Part shown: one piece after another, positions 1,504 to 5,865 of the stretch
Layout: every line of letters starts with the position of its first letter
Position numbering within the stretch: position 1 is the first letter of the stretch
From: a virus
Direction: 5' to 3' (one strand)
Virus record (IMG/VR): IMGVR_UViG_3300021976_000053
Location: 1 to 31,950 of that record
Length of the DNA: 31,950 nucleotides
The notes under the pieces: generated by a model
Told to the model about the DNA's origin: nothing
What the model saw: the letters and a program-made list of their open reading frames with translations, nothing else
Database searches by the model: none
Made by a program: the position numbers and the translations under genes

Positions 1504-1851
1504 ATGGCGTTCACGGGTGCAGACCTGGCGTACCTGCGGACCCGGCTGGGGTCCACAGTCAACGAGGACACCAACCCCGAGGTGACCGACGACCTCGAAG
1601 AGCGGTTCGCGCGGCTCCTGAGCCTGCCCCTCGTCGTGGTCGAGGTCCTGCAGCAGCGGCTGGCGGATGTCGCCAACGCGGCTGAGAACCCGCTGAACTA
1701 CACGATCCCCGGCGAGTACTCCCAGGACGCCTCCGCCAACGTCGCCTTCCTGAAGGAAGCGCTGGCTGACGCGCGGGACGAGGCCGGGGTGAACGCGCCC
1801 GGCAGCCTGCTGACCGCCGTACGGGCGCCGCGTAGCCGCTGGCGGCGGTAG
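1504..1851 (+). CDS. Head-tail connector-like protein
   Basis: This 115-residue protein starts at ATG 1504 behind GGGAGGGG. It is mostly alpha-helical. The N-terminal MAFTGADLAYLRTRLGSTVN pattern and a small helical fold fit the adaptor-type connectors that dock under the portal, although I see no diagnostic motif. The stop overlaps the GTG start of the minor head protein gene (TAGTG), placing it at the start of the head-tail joining operon. Confidence 0.55.
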   Translation: MAFTGADLAYLRTRLGSTVNEDTNPEVTDDLEERFARLLSLPLVVVEVLQQRLADVANAAENPLNYTIPGEYSQDASANVAFLKEALADARDEAGVNAPGSLLTAVRAPRSRWRR

Positions 1852-3641
1852 TGCCCACCCAGCAGCCGAAGGCCGCCATCGCCGCGATTGAGGACCTGCT
1901 GCTGAAGGTCTACGCCAAGGCCTGGCAGGACATCATGGACTTGCAGGAGCAGATCGCCGCGGACCCACTGAAGTGGCGGCGTCGGCGCCGGCTCAACGAG
2001 CTGCTGAAGGCTGTCGAGGACAAGATGGCCGATCTCGATGTGCGCACCCGGGCCTGGGCAACCAGTGAGTTGGTGCGCCCGTACGCGCTCGGGGCCGCAG
2101 CCGGAGCAGTAGAGCTCGGGGAATCGGCGGCCGCCGTTTGGACGCAGCTTCCCGAGCAGGCCATCTCCCGAATCGCCACGGACACCCTGGACGATCTGCT
2201 CAAGTCGACCCGGTACGTACGGCGTACGACCAAGGCGCTCATCCGGGCGATCGGCAAGGACGAGATCCTCGCCAAGCTCACTCGGGGCGACACCGCCGTG
2301 CAGGCCGGCCGGAGGATGGCCCAGATCCTGGCCGATAAGGGCATCCACGCGATCCGGTACAAGGACGGCTCGATGCACGGGCTGAAGGAGTACGCGGAGA
2401 TGCTGGTCCGCACCAAGACCGCTGAGGCGTACAACCTCGGTGTGCTCGAATCCCAGGAGGTGCTCGGGGTCGAGTTCTGGGAGATCTTCGACGGGGCCGG
2501 CTGCGGGCTGACCTCCCACCAGGACCCGGTCAAGGCGCTCGGACGGATCGTGGACAAGGCGACTGCGGAGAAGTACCCGATAAGTCACCCAAACGCGATT
2601 ATGGAGGGATCGCAGGTGCTTTCTGTGGGCGGCATTCGTGCTGCTTACCGGGCAGAGTGGTCAGGCCCTGTGTACGTCGTACGGACGGCGGCTGGATCGA
2701 GGCTCACCGTCGGTCCTAATCATCCAGTGCTCACCGTACGTGGGTGGCTTCCTGCCCGCAGTCTTCGCGAAGGAGATCAGGTACTTCGCAGCACCGTCCA
2801 TCGGCAGATCCCGGTGCTGTCGGCTGATGTGCACCTCGATGAGGTGCCAGCCAGCGTTTCGGATGTCTTCGCGACGCTGCGGCATCTGGGCGCGCACTCG
2901 CGGGTTGTACCCGCCTCCGACGATCTCCACGGCGATGGGGAATTCTGTCAAGGCGAAGTCGATGTTGTAGCGGTTGCAGAGGCTTTTCTGCCGTACGAAG
3001 AGCAAGCCCGTTCGGGAGAGGGTTTCAGCCATCAACTCTTCGTGCCGACTGCTGTGCGAGAGAGAGCGTTCCGCGGACTCAGCACGGCGCCTTTTCGTTT
3101 GCTCGGTGTCTCGTTGCCCGCGCCGAGCACGATGCGCAGCATCGACGGTGATCCGGTAGCTGGATCTTGGTCTAATTTTGATTCCGCACTCAGTGAGGCG
3201 CTTGCGTATGACGCTGCTAGAGCAGCCGATACGACGAGCCAAATCCTGGGCCGAAGTGCCAGCGAGATAGAGCTGGACCAAATCATCGAAATTCGGTATG
3301 TGGAGTCTTGGACGGGGCATGCCTACGACCTCGAAACTGGAACGGGCGTGTACTGGTGTGACGGTATTCTAGTCCACAACTGCCGCCGTGCATATGGCGC
3401 CCGCCCGGACATCCACACGAAGCTAGGTGCTGAGGCAGCTTCACCATCCGTCACCAAGGACCAGGTGGCCGACAACCTGGCAGCCGATCAGGCACGCTCC
3501 CGGGCGCAACAGGCCCGCCGTTACCGGATGCGCGCACGCCACGCGCCACGCCCGGCGCAGCGCCAGGCCAAGGCCACCACGATCACCGCCGCGCGCCGCG
3601 GCGACGTCAATGTACCGACCAAGCGCCGCAAGCGCCGATAA
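1851..3641 (+). CDS. MuF-like minor head protein interrupted by an intein
   Basis: The 596-codon gene starts at GTG 1851. After removal of the 262-residue intein (2595-3380) the product would be 334 residues. The host protein has a helical N-terminal domain and a C-terminal MuF-type region: an EIFDGAGCGLTSH segment, a Gly/Pro-containing loop, and SHPN joined after splicing to CRRAY, recreating the family's HPNCR motif. MuF-like proteins attach to the portal and are packaged in the head. The C-terminus is very basic (KRRKRR). The intein sits in the most conserved MuF motif, as is usual for inteins. The stop is followed by ATG 3649 of the next gene. Confidence 0.85.
   Translation: MPTQQPKAAIAAIEDLLLKVYAKAWQDIMDLQEQIAADPLKWRRRRRLNELLKAVEDKMADLDVRTRAWATSELVRPYALGAAAGAVELGESAAAVWTQLPEQAISRIATDTLDDLLKSTRYVRRTTKALIRAIGKDEILAKLTRGDTAVQAGRRMAQILADKGIHAIRYKDGSMHGLKEYAEMLVRTKTAEAYNLGVLESQEVLGVEFWEIFDGAGCGLTSHQDPVKALGRIVDKATAEKYPISHPNAIMEGSQVLSVGGIRAAYRAEWSGPVYVVRTAAGSRLTVGPNHPVLTVRGWLPARSLREGDQVLRSTVHRQIPVLSADVHLDEVPASVSDVFATLRHLGAHSRVVPASDDLHGDGEFCQGEVDVVAVAEAFLPYEEQARSGEGFSHQLFVPTAVRERAFRGLSTAPFRLLGVSLPAPSTMRSIDGDPVAGSWSNFDSALSEALAYDAARAADTTSQILGRSASEIELDQIIEIRYVESWTGHAYDLETGTGVYWCDGILVHNCRRAYGARPDIHTKLGAEAASPSVTKDQVADNLAADQARSRAQQARRYRMRARHAPRPAQRQAKATTITAARRGDVNVPTKRRKRR
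2595..3380 (+). other. Intein 1: Ala1 (class 2-like) intein in the MuF gene
   Basis: Intein residue 1 is Ala (codon 2595-2597) and the end is LVHN followed by Cys+1 (3381-3383). Block A reads AIMEGSQVLSVGG. Block B is GPNHPVLT, keeping the His but with Gly where Thr is usual. The block ends GWLPARSLREGD. Block F is GHAYDLETG and block G GILVHN. Starting with Ala, and lacking Trp and Cys at the class 3 positions, it fits class 2, in which Cys+1 attacks directly. Hint-like sequence covers residues 1-65 and 235-262. The 169 residues between show no LAGLIDADG, HNH or other endonuclease domain in this frame. The segment is visibly more A+T-rich than its flanks. Confidence 0.85.
2661..3320 (-). CDS. 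Vsr/EDxHD-type homing endonuclease encoded antisense inside intein 1
   Basis: This 219-residue ORF runs from ATG 3320 to TGA 2661 wholly within the intein, on the other strand. Residues 10-46 form a resolvase-like helix-turn-helix (LVQLYLAGTSAQDLARRIGC, then VIRKRL). Residues 105-165 match the Vsr-like homing endonuclease core: GLLFVRQ, NRYNIDFAL with Asp121, IAVEIVGGGYN with Glu132, RREDI, and GWHLIEVHI. That order is typical of the family, which is known from fractured or intein-linked genes. The start has only a weak ribosome site. TAGAAT at 3366-3371 (minus) could be a -10, without a convincing -35. The conserved fold argues for a real gene, and the sense-frame filler opposite it for a by-product. 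Confidence 0.8.
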   Translation of the reverse strand: MPRPRLHIPNFDDLVQLYLAGTSAQDLARRIGCSSSVIRKRLTECGIKIRPRSSYRITVDAAHRARRGQRDTEQTKRRRAESAERSLSHSSRHEELMAETLSRTGLLFVRQKSLCNRYNIDFALTEFPIAVEIVGGGYNPRVRAQMPQRREDIRNAGWHLIEVHISRQHRDLPMDGAAKYLISFAKTAGRKPPTYGEHWMIRTDGEPRSSRRPYDVHRA

Positions 3642-4011: not shown

Positions 4012-4435
4012 CCTGGAGCCCGCCCGGCACAAGGTCGAGTCCTTCATGACGGAGACCTGCGACGTCATCGCGCCCGGCGCCGTGCATGCAGCCACGGTCG
4101 ATCCGGTGACGCTGGAGCTGATCTACCCGGATGCCGTAAAGCTGTACTCCGCCGGTGCCTGCAAGATCAAGGACATCATGGCCCAGTCGTCCCGCGGCGG
4201 CACCAGCACGTCGGCCGAGGGCGGCAACCAGTTGCTCATCGTCGGGACCAAGATCGACTTTCCGATCGGAGAGGTCGGCAACGGCTTTCCCGAGGGGTCG
4301 CTGATCATCTGCCTGAGCTCGTTGCGGATGCCGCAGATGGTCGGCGCGCACTACCTGATGCGACAGTCCGCGCTGAAGACCTTCGCCATCCAGTACTCCG
4401 TGATGGCCGATCGCCGCAAGCAGGTGGACCCGTGA
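4001..4435 (+). CDS. Head-tail stopper-like protein
   Basis: This 144-residue protein starts at GTG 4001. It has a short N-terminal helix (PARHKVESFM) followed by a beta-rich body (TCDVIAPG, ...KLYSAGACKIKDI, ...LLIVGTKIDFPIG) typical in size and texture of siphovirus head-tail stopper proteins. It resembles what I remember of the DUF6093 family of actinophage proteins, but no search was possible. It ends in a GTGA overlap with the gp10-like gene, consistent with the usual order adaptor, stopper, gp10-like, tail terminator. Confidence 0.6.
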   Translation: MAINLEPARHKVESFMTETCDVIAPGAVHAATVDPVTLELIYPDAVKLYSAGACKIKDIMAQSSRGGTSTSAEGGNQLLIVGTKIDFPIGEVGNGFPEGSLIICLSSLRMPQMVGAHYLMRQSALKTFAIQYSVMADRRKQVDP

Positions 4436-5865
4436 GCGAGGTCTACTTCACGCTGACGGGCGCACAGGAAGCTGTCGCGATGCTGACTGGTGCCCGGAAG
4501 AAGGTCGGGCCGGCGCTGGACAAGCTGGTCAACCACCACGGCATGCTGCTGCGGACCCGGGTCATGGCGAAGGCGTCCGGCCGCCCGGGGCCGCGCGCGA
4601 TCACCGGCGACTACCGGCGGTCCTGGCAGCACAAGCACACCGGAGGCGGCAGCATGTCGCGCTCCGAGGTCGGGACCAACGCCGTGCAGGGCCGACGGCT
4701 GGAGTACGGCTTCAACGGATCAGACTCGCTCGGCCGGGTGTATTGTGCCGACATGGAAACAAAAGCCTTGACCCAACGCGGCTGGCTAAGTGGCGATGAG
4801 ATCACTATTGGTGATCAAATCATGACACTGAACCCTGATACTTGGATGTCGGAGTTTCAGCCGGTTCTTGCCGTGAACAAGTTTGCAGATCAGAGCGTCG
4901 CTGTTGTCGAGGCACGTACTCTCTCGCAGGCCACTACGGACGACCATCGTTGGCTGGTCGAGCGCTACTACGCGCGGAAAAAGATGTGGGTGCGGGAGTG
5001 GCGGACGACGAAAGACATGCCGCCGAATGTCCGGGTGCCGCTTGCAGCGCCCCGACAGGACCTTCCAGTGCATGCGACGGTGGAAGACGCCGTCGTGGAG
5101 ATGGTTGGTTGGTTCTGGACCGAGGGCAGCTACGGCTGGCGGACTGGTAAAGCAAGAGAACATGGGCCGACGTACGCCAACATCTCACAGTCAAATCGCG
5201 CTAATCCGGATAAATGCGCGCGTATCGACGCGGCATTGCTGCGTCTGTTCGGCCCGCCGGCTCCTTTTGCTGCTGGAGGGCACTGGCACTGCAGGGAGCG
5301 AGGGGACGGCGTCAGAACGTACACCCTGGATCGAGCTGCCGTCTGGCTTCTTGCTCGGGCAGTTTCTTCCCCGGACAAGGAACTTCGTCCGGAGTGGCTG
5401 TGCACGCTCACGCAGGGGCAACTGGACTTGCTGATTGACGTCTCCATGGCGGCTGATGGGCATGTCGATAAGAGCGGAGTAGCGCGTCTTTGTCAGGCAA
5501 ACGAAGACCGAGCAGATAGTTGGGCGATGGCTCTAGCGCTAGCAGGTAAGGCACCTGTAACGCGGAGAATAGAACGCGCACGCGGCGGTGTTGAGTGGGC
5601 TACAACTACGCTCCGCACCGCGTATTCGCACGGATTCGGATCTGCGCTCCGGAAGGACAGGGGGCATTCTTCGGTGCAGCACAGGCGCGCAGATGTTTGG
5701 TGCCCGACTACGGCCAACGGAACATGGCTTGCCCGTCGAAACGGGACGGTCTACTTCACAGGCAACTCGCAGCCGCCGTTCCCGCATGCCCGGCCTGCTT
5801 TCGACGAGACTGCACCCGGCTTCGAGGCTGGCGGCGTGGCGCTGATTGCGGGGCTGTTCAAGTGA
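4432..5865 (+). CDS. HK97 gp10-like head-tail/tail component interrupted by an intein
   Basis: The 477-codon gene starts at GTG 4432. Residues 1-104 and the last 32 residues form a 136-residue host protein of HK97 gp10 type: a helical N-terminal region (EAVAMLTGARKKVGPALDKL), TGDYRRSW, YGF, and the C-terminal QPPFPHARPAFDE motif that is the family signature. The 341-residue intein (4744-5766) splits the protein just before that signature, between Tyr and Ser. Splicing would join GRVY to SQPPFPH. Without splicing, the conserved C-terminal helix would be displaced, so virion assembly probably depends on splicing. The gene is coupled at both ends by GTGA overlaps. Confidence 0.88.
   Translation: MSEVYFTLTGAQEAVAMLTGARKKVGPALDKLVNHHGMLLRTRVMAKASGRPGPRAITGDYRRSWQHKHTGGGSMSRSEVGTNAVQGRRLEYGFNGSDSLGRVYCADMETKALTQRGWLSGDEITIGDQIMTLNPDTWMSEFQPVLAVNKFADQSVAVVEARTLSQATTDDHRWLVERYYARKKMWVREWRTTKDMPPNVRVPLAAPRQDLPVHATVEDAVVEMVGWFWTEGSYGWRTGKAREHGPTYANISQSNRANPDKCARIDAALLRLFGPPAPFAAGGHWHCRERGDGVRTYTLDRAAVWLLARAVSSPDKELRPEWLCTLTQGQLDLLIDVSMAADGHVDKSGVARLCQANEDRADSWAMALALAGKAPVTRRIERARGGVEWATTTLRTAYSHGFGSALRKDRGHSSVQHRRADVWCPTTANGTWLARRNGTVYFTGNSQPPFPHARPAFDETAPGFEAGGVALIAGLFK
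4744..5766 (+). other. Intein 2: LAGLIDADG intein with class 3 (WCT) motifs and Cys1
   Basis: The 341-residue intein begins CADMETKALTQRGW and ends VYFTGN before Ser+1. Block B is TTDDHRW (Thr, His and Trp at positions 7, 10 and 12). Block F is VWCPTT, with Cys in place of the usual Asp. Block G has Thr and Gly before the terminal Asn. These Trp-Cys-Thr residues are the class 3 signature. Two LAGLIDADG-like helices are present, VEMVGWFWTEGSY and LLIDVSMAADGHV, each with an acidic residue (Glu, Asp) at the catalytic place. The endonuclease therefore lies in the sense frame, unlike intein 1. Base composition is lower in G+C than the flanks. Confidence 0.88.

Follow-up and report, generated by a model that had tools for sequence, protein, structure and literature searches.

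The window, the whole stretch of 31,950 nucleotides of viral DNA that was analyzed (IMG/VR record IMGVR_UViG_3300021976_000053), contains a gene for a MuF-like phage minor capsid protein that includes an intein, while the complementary strand of the intein DNA carries a second gene encoding a homing-endonuclease-like protein (Table 1). The host gene and the intein form a single continuous open reading frame (ORF), and the antisense ORF lies inside the intein, leaving 66 and 60 intein bases uncovered. These boundaries, as well as the length of the antisense ORF, are exactly those that the first-pass annotation had proposed from the sequence. The two frames are codon-opposed, with sense codon position 1 facing antisense codon position 3.

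Table 1. Features of the MuF-like gene, its intein and the nested antisense gene in the window (a slash marks an intein junction).
Feature	Position	Strand	Basis or remark
MuF-like / phage minor capsid protein ORF	1851..3641	+	GTG start, 596 aa; PF06152 Phage_min_cap2, E 4.8e-8
Exteins of the MuF-like ORF	1851-2594 and 3381-3641	+	flank the intein
Intein, 262 codons	2595..3380	+	HPN/AIMEGS...LVHN/CRR; Ala1, HN before Cys+1, class-2-like ends
Block B	2712..2726	+	GPNHP (TPNHP in most relatives); alignment
Predicted disordered linker, sense residues 129-222	2979..3260	+	pLDDT mostly 23-43; constrained in the antisense reading only
Block F, HAYDLE	3318..3335	+	complement gives antisense start codon (CAT=ATG) and Shine-Dalgarno sequence
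Nested antisense homing-endonuclease-like gene, 219 aa	2661..3320 (including stop)	-	tblastn relatives; profile score
Vsr-like nuclease domain, antisense residues 89-206	2703..3056	-	structural and profile matches
Putative active site E95, D121, E132	D121, 2958-2960; E132, 2925-2927	-	alignment; invariant D and E
Helix-turn-helix, antisense residues 11-44	3189..3290	-	Pfam HTH families, helices in model, alignment
Shine-Dalgarno sequence GAGG	3329..3332	-	8 nt before the ATG at 3318-3320

The sense reading of the intein matches the Pfam family Intein_splicing (PF14890) with an E-value of 1.1e-7, at a score of 32.2 bits that is below the curated cut-off of 35.8. The structural model generated with AlphaFold2 has Hint ends with pLDDT values of 75-94 and is closest to intein splicing domains, with the Mtu RecA intein as the best match (E 6.4e-4), in agreement with the good Hint ends read earlier from the sequence. 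The intein terminates in an asparagine preceded by histidine, with cysteine at position +1, and the alanine at position 1, in place of a cysteine, makes it compatible with class-2-like splicing only. In the alignment, the complement of block B encodes the C-terminal 'Y.VIR' strand of the nuclease. The insertion site is occupied by uninterrupted sequence in the intein-free relatives Streptomyces phage SV1 ('...QHPNCRHS') and the ZL12 protein ('...AHPNCQRE'); the site in the window is equivalent to 'HPNCRH' of SV1, where the coding junction is intact. A second intein was noted by sequence reading in the same window, at about 4744-5766 inside a small head-tail gene (4432-5865); it looks like an ordinary intein whose own frame includes a LAGLIDADG-like domain (LLIDVSMAADGH, EMVGWFWTEGSYG), and a Pfam search with this gene returned no significant match.

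The antisense product matches Pfam families weakly (HTH_58, 5.5e-4; MTES_1575, 5e-3; DUF559, 6e-3), and its AlphaFold2 model, built with 16 relatives (pLDDT 77), comprises a helix-turn-helix (HTH) and an alpha/beta nuclease domain. The top three FoldSeek matches of this model in the PDB are two chains of 3r3p, the catalytic domain of the homing endonuclease I-Bth0305I, and the Vsr structure 1cw0; a second structural aligner (VIA) gave Z-scores of 10.8 to 1cw0, 10.5 to 3hrl and 10.2 to 3r3p, and a profile of 20 nuclease domains matches 3r3p with an E-value of 1.4e-7. Among the acidic residues of the nuclease, the aspartate and the glutamate are invariant in the 20 relatives, and the helix glutamate is present in most of them. 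The first-pass annotation had described the product as a Vsr/EDxHD-like endonuclease with an N-terminal HTH and had named a structural match to nucleases as the check; the weak Pfam HTH matches and the helices of the model bear out the HTH, and I-Bth0305I and Vsr at the head of the FoldSeek list bear out the Vsr-like fold. Of the EDxHD signature, the E and D are present, the H is not conserved, and the position aligned with 'KDKRK' of 3r3p is mostly not D. Since the strict H-D pair is not conserved, we prefer the name Vsr-like. The HTH region varies within the family, a second HTH being added in some relatives. In Rhodococcus phage REQ3 (locus L010, 2372-2917), the nearest neighbor of the window in the tree, the antisense gene has lost the HTH and begins at a different start, possibly through decay or a change of specificity; its intein has the Ala1 and the altered block B of the window.

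The translation signals of the antisense gene coincide with block F, the start codon being the complement of the conserved histidine codon CAT and the Shine-Dalgarno sequence the complement of the leucine codon CTC. The histidine is encoded by CAT in 19 of 22 loci, and the other three have GTG starts. GAGG or GAGA likewise occurs in 19 of the 22, via the CTC leucine codon, against a local CTC frequency of 5-59%; the alternatives to CTC in block F are CTA and TTG, from which AGG-type sites still result. As this codon usage indicates, synonymous codon choice in block F preserves both the start codon and the ribosome-binding site on its complement. A scan of the window for promoters and terminators found no sigma-70-like promoter and no terminator for the antisense gene. 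At five loci (L004, L007, L044, L045, L035), the block G complement has TATAAT or TATTAT some 50 bases ahead of the antisense start codon, a possible -10 element built into the intein.

Because a codon-opposed frame is often open in GC-rich DNA, synonymous codons were randomized with the sense protein held fixed (1000 trials for each of eight members). The antisense frame of the window stayed open in 6% of the randomizations, which makes an open frame by itself weak evidence at the high GC content of this window. The real antisense protein reached 155 bits with a profile built from its relatives, compared with a mean of 31 and a maximum of 66 bits in the randomized sequences, and the real score likewise exceeded all 1000 randomizations in the other seven members. 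An open frame was seen in none of the randomizations for Aaphi23 (41% GC), the Helicobacter prophage or Snoke. The GC content by codon position in the core of the window intein (GC1 0.70, GC3 0.60; GC3 0.88 in the N-extein) fits antisense coding, although we do not take it as proof; nor do we take the low GC3 of the core as evidence of foreign origin, since dual coding itself lowers GC3.

As the frames are codon-opposed, substitutions reveal which reading is constrained, and we compared those synonymous in the sense (S_syn) and in the antisense reading (A_syn). In the Guernseyvirinae, the exteins have an S_syn of 0.84-0.90 (expected 0.27) and an A_syn of 0.08-0.10, whereas the central overlap has an A_syn of 0.76 (expected 0.26) and an S_syn of 0.16. 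The same flip from sense to antisense occurs in the Pseudomonas/enterobacterial, Gordonia, Malisha and Edwardsiella/Klebsiella groups, which are independent of each other although pairwise counts within them are not; it is weaker in the Aaphi23/Vibrio group, which is more diverged. In 20-codon bins, the switch of constrained strand falls within the intein. The element of the window has no close relative (33-35% identity), and its selection map is therefore one of deep comparisons. Sense residues 23-70 are constrained in the sense reading (S_syn 0.65-0.68, A_syn 0.16-0.22), residues 71-128 are about equally conserved in both readings, and residues 129-222 are constrained in antisense only (A_syn 0.60-0.62, S_syn 0.16-0.17), with 30% identity in the antisense and 15% in the sense product. 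These substitution patterns indicate three zones, namely sense-only tips, a dual zone and an antisense-only core, with selection on both readings. The dual zone may have a sense role too, given its similar conservation in both readings: in the window (2805-2978) and its relatives, it contains the motif P..[IV].DVF..L ... D[FL]HGD ... [EV].[IV]V, which is as conserved at deep divergence as its antisense nuclease mirror. The earlier proposal that one DNA segment encodes a splicing element in one direction and its nuclease in the other is borne out for the coding capacity of both strands and for selection on both, from which the two functions may be deduced.

A tblastn search of 50,697 phage records with the antisense protein retrieved 41 records, searches with relatives as queries retrieved 105 and 130, and the sense intein alone retrieved 120. 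In the loci that were read, the nuclease gene is on the opposite strand of an intein that has Hint ends, Acinetobacter phages being the sole exception; the hosts include Gordonia, Rhodococcus, Pseudomonas, Salmonella, Klebsiella, Vibrio and Helicobacter, and one locus belongs to an uncultured virus. All 34 distinct intein DNAs (42 loci) have an open antisense frame with the Y-N-x-D ... V-E nuclease motif, in a sample biased against broken copies, as most loci were found via the antisense protein. Conservation of the antisense frame in the inteins of other phages, suggested as a check by the first-pass annotation, was thus observed, and the opposing case of a broken antisense frame beside a conserved, folded sense middle was looked for and found in none of the 34; in the model of the window intein, the sense middle is poorly folded (pLDDT about 25), and selection acts there on the antisense reading. 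The nested antisense arrangement that it had singled out is present, not as a single case but as a widespread family. Most records list only the head protein at these loci; the Acinetobacter records list the nuclease too. Searches of viral and genome contig collections with the antisense protein and the spliced MuF found no close relatives of the window element, and a class search of 369 genomes had as its sole match the Atlantibacter prophage already in the set.

Besides the HPN/C site, inteins of this type occupy other positions, the host genes being assigned by sequence inspection. These are the terminase large subunit at locus L035 (...STEYD/C...HN/CIFVQEATD); a dCMP-deaminase-like gene of virus Rctr197k (L043; ...CVA/C...HN/CAKRL), where the composite intein lies at the metal-binding PC..C motif and the nuclease has a GTG start; and a second MuF site in Escherichia phage fEg-Eco06 (L055, 1501-2300; TST/C...N/CRARDG), where the intein with its antisense nuclease lies a few residues upstream of the usual site. 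In the Acinetobacter phages IME285 (L037) and P1068 (L038), MuF is intein-free and a free-standing homologous nuclease follows directly on the other strand, overlapping the MuF stop by a few bases, with a complement full of stops. Since this homolog stands alone beside an intein-free MuF, the nuclease does not need the overlap, and this copy points to an association of nuclease and intein that can be lost or gained; the tree did not resolve the direction of this change.

The distribution among close relatives points to mobility. A Snoke-like MuF was found in 851 phage records; among the matches listed, most cross the site uninterrupted and others have the intein. Snoke differs from fEg-Eco19 by an exact insertion of 816 bp at HPN/C, and the intein is absent at this exact site from both fEg-Eco19 and Escherichia phage Schulenburg, the latter sharing 99-100% identity with Snoke in the roughly 1.7 kb that precede the site. 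The intein DNAs of the E. coli phage Snoke and the Salmonella phage LSPA1 are 95-100% (about 97%) identical, whereas the terminase and portal regions of these phages are mostly 57-85% identical. From these sequence comparisons, we conclude that the cassette has been transferred laterally among relatives, and by extension such a transfer is presumed for the copy in the window. A tract of divergence around the intein between Snoke and fEg-Eco19 was initially considered as a co-conversion tract; we make no such claim because, in the wider context, mosaic divergence extends over the whole region. Schulenburg (L053, 3477-4046) has an HNH endonuclease gene just after its intein-free MuF; this gene may be another mobile element in competition for MuF.

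Coding on both strands, selection on both readings, the nuclease fold, the precise insertion and mobility in relatives are established computationally, and from them we infer splicing, antisense transcription and translation, a cleavage site and homing. In our preferred reading, to which we assign a probability of about 0.88, the locus is a composite mobile element, a splicing intein with a homing endonuclease gene nested in the opposite orientation in its own coding DNA. The sense reading would yield a Hint domain that holds a long unstructured linker and splices itself out of the MuF precursor. The antisense reading of the linker and of much of the Hint-coding DNA would yield an independent HTH-Vsr-like nuclease, the complement being transcribed separately and translated from the Shine-Dalgarno sequence and start codon on the block F complement. 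In a mixed infection, the nuclease would bind and cut the empty MuF allele at the insertion site, and break repair templated by the occupied allele would then transfer the complete 786-bp cassette with both intein and nuclease.

Of the alternatives, the one that retains some weight, though we regard it as unlikely, is that the nuclease is dead in the phage of the window and the element is kept vertically as a relic of a once-mobile design. The copy has no close relative, its Ala1 and GPNH block B are derived, and its sister REQ3 is without the HTH, all of which would fit such a relic; against it, the frame, Shine-Dalgarno sequence, start codon, HTH and putative active-site residues D121 and E132 of the window are intact. 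It is quite improbable that the antisense gene is real without being a homing endonuclease, and instead encodes a regulator that binds DNA, a nuclease for restriction or phage defense, or a repair enzyme sheltering in the intein. HTH domains and the Vsr fold are found in regulators, in Vsr repair enzymes and in function-unassigned DUF559 proteins as well, but the constant position within a precisely inserted intein, the several insertion sites, the presence or absence in near-identical phages, the transfer between phage genera and the homing endonuclease as closest structure all argue for homing. Finally, the view that the intein is the sole gene and that an open antisense frame inherits its similarity from conserved sense residues was rejected as scarcely credible: an open frame is not unusual among GC-rich members (6-24%), and homology of the sense protein is by itself enough for mean antisense profile scores of 31-81 bits, but the real scores lie far above all randomizations in 8/8 members, the frame is open even where the probability of openness is about 0, core substitutions are synonymous in the antisense and not in the sense reading, a free-standing homolog exists without a sense gene, and the antisense product has a nuclease fold.

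Taking the composite mobile element as the preferred reading, we consider it fairly probable that it represents a widespread, previously unrecognized class of mobile inteins in which splicing and homing are split between the strands, the start signals of the nuclease reside in synonymous codons of a splicing motif, and several genes and phages of very different hosts have been colonized. A full-text literature search, which did not cover the preprint 10.1101/2025.01.02.630785 on actinobacteriophage inteins of 'non-canonical architecture', found no antisense nuclease nested in an intein. Such a class would add a third way, next to in-frame fusion and fractured genes, in which a homing endonuclease can travel with an intein, and would separate expression of the nuclease from that of a late structural gene. 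It would also offer a natural and comparatively testable instance of extended dual coding on opposite strands that has been conserved in widely differing genomes, and annotation pipelines overlook such antisense nucleases. As the family includes a nuclease that stands alone, sister phages without the intein and several sites of insertion, the order of events and the function are directly testable.

Parts of this organization are found in known systems. Group I introns can carry homing endonuclease genes antisense to the host gene, as here, with the overlapped sequence being structural RNA or spacer; in the present element, by contrast, the overlapped DNA is a second protein-coding frame, and one for protein splicing. 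Mobile inteins with in-frame LAGLIDADG or HNH nucleases share the Hint ends, the precise insertion in a conserved motif and the patchy distribution, but here the nuclease is a separate gene on the other strand. Fractured genes, reportedly described by Dassa et al. in 2009, are said to combine split inteins with an EDxHD/Vsr-like endonuclease gene located between the split halves; they likewise tie a Vsr-like nuclease to intein coding sequence in phage-like DNA, while in our element the host gene and intein form one continuous ORF that the nuclease gene overlaps in antisense. I-Bth0305I (PDB 3r3p), the best FoldSeek match, is a homing endonuclease that likewise has a Vsr-like catalytic domain; it was deposited as a 'mobile intron protein', whereas the family described here does not keep the final D of EDxHD and its gene lies antisense within an intein. 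Among published cases, the closest is the ShiLan domain, described along with further HNH insertions hidden in phage methylase genes (Arsenault, Gosselin and Gogarten 2025, PMC11855218), in which a mobile endonuclease is also read out of frame from DNA that is read in frame with a phage host gene. The ShiLan element uses an alternative frame of the same strand, is of the HNH type and has neither a splicing domain nor a detectable ribosome-binding site (PMC11855218), in contrast to the present family, which combines the opposite strand, a Vsr-like nuclease, a real Hint intein and a conserved Shine-Dalgarno sequence.
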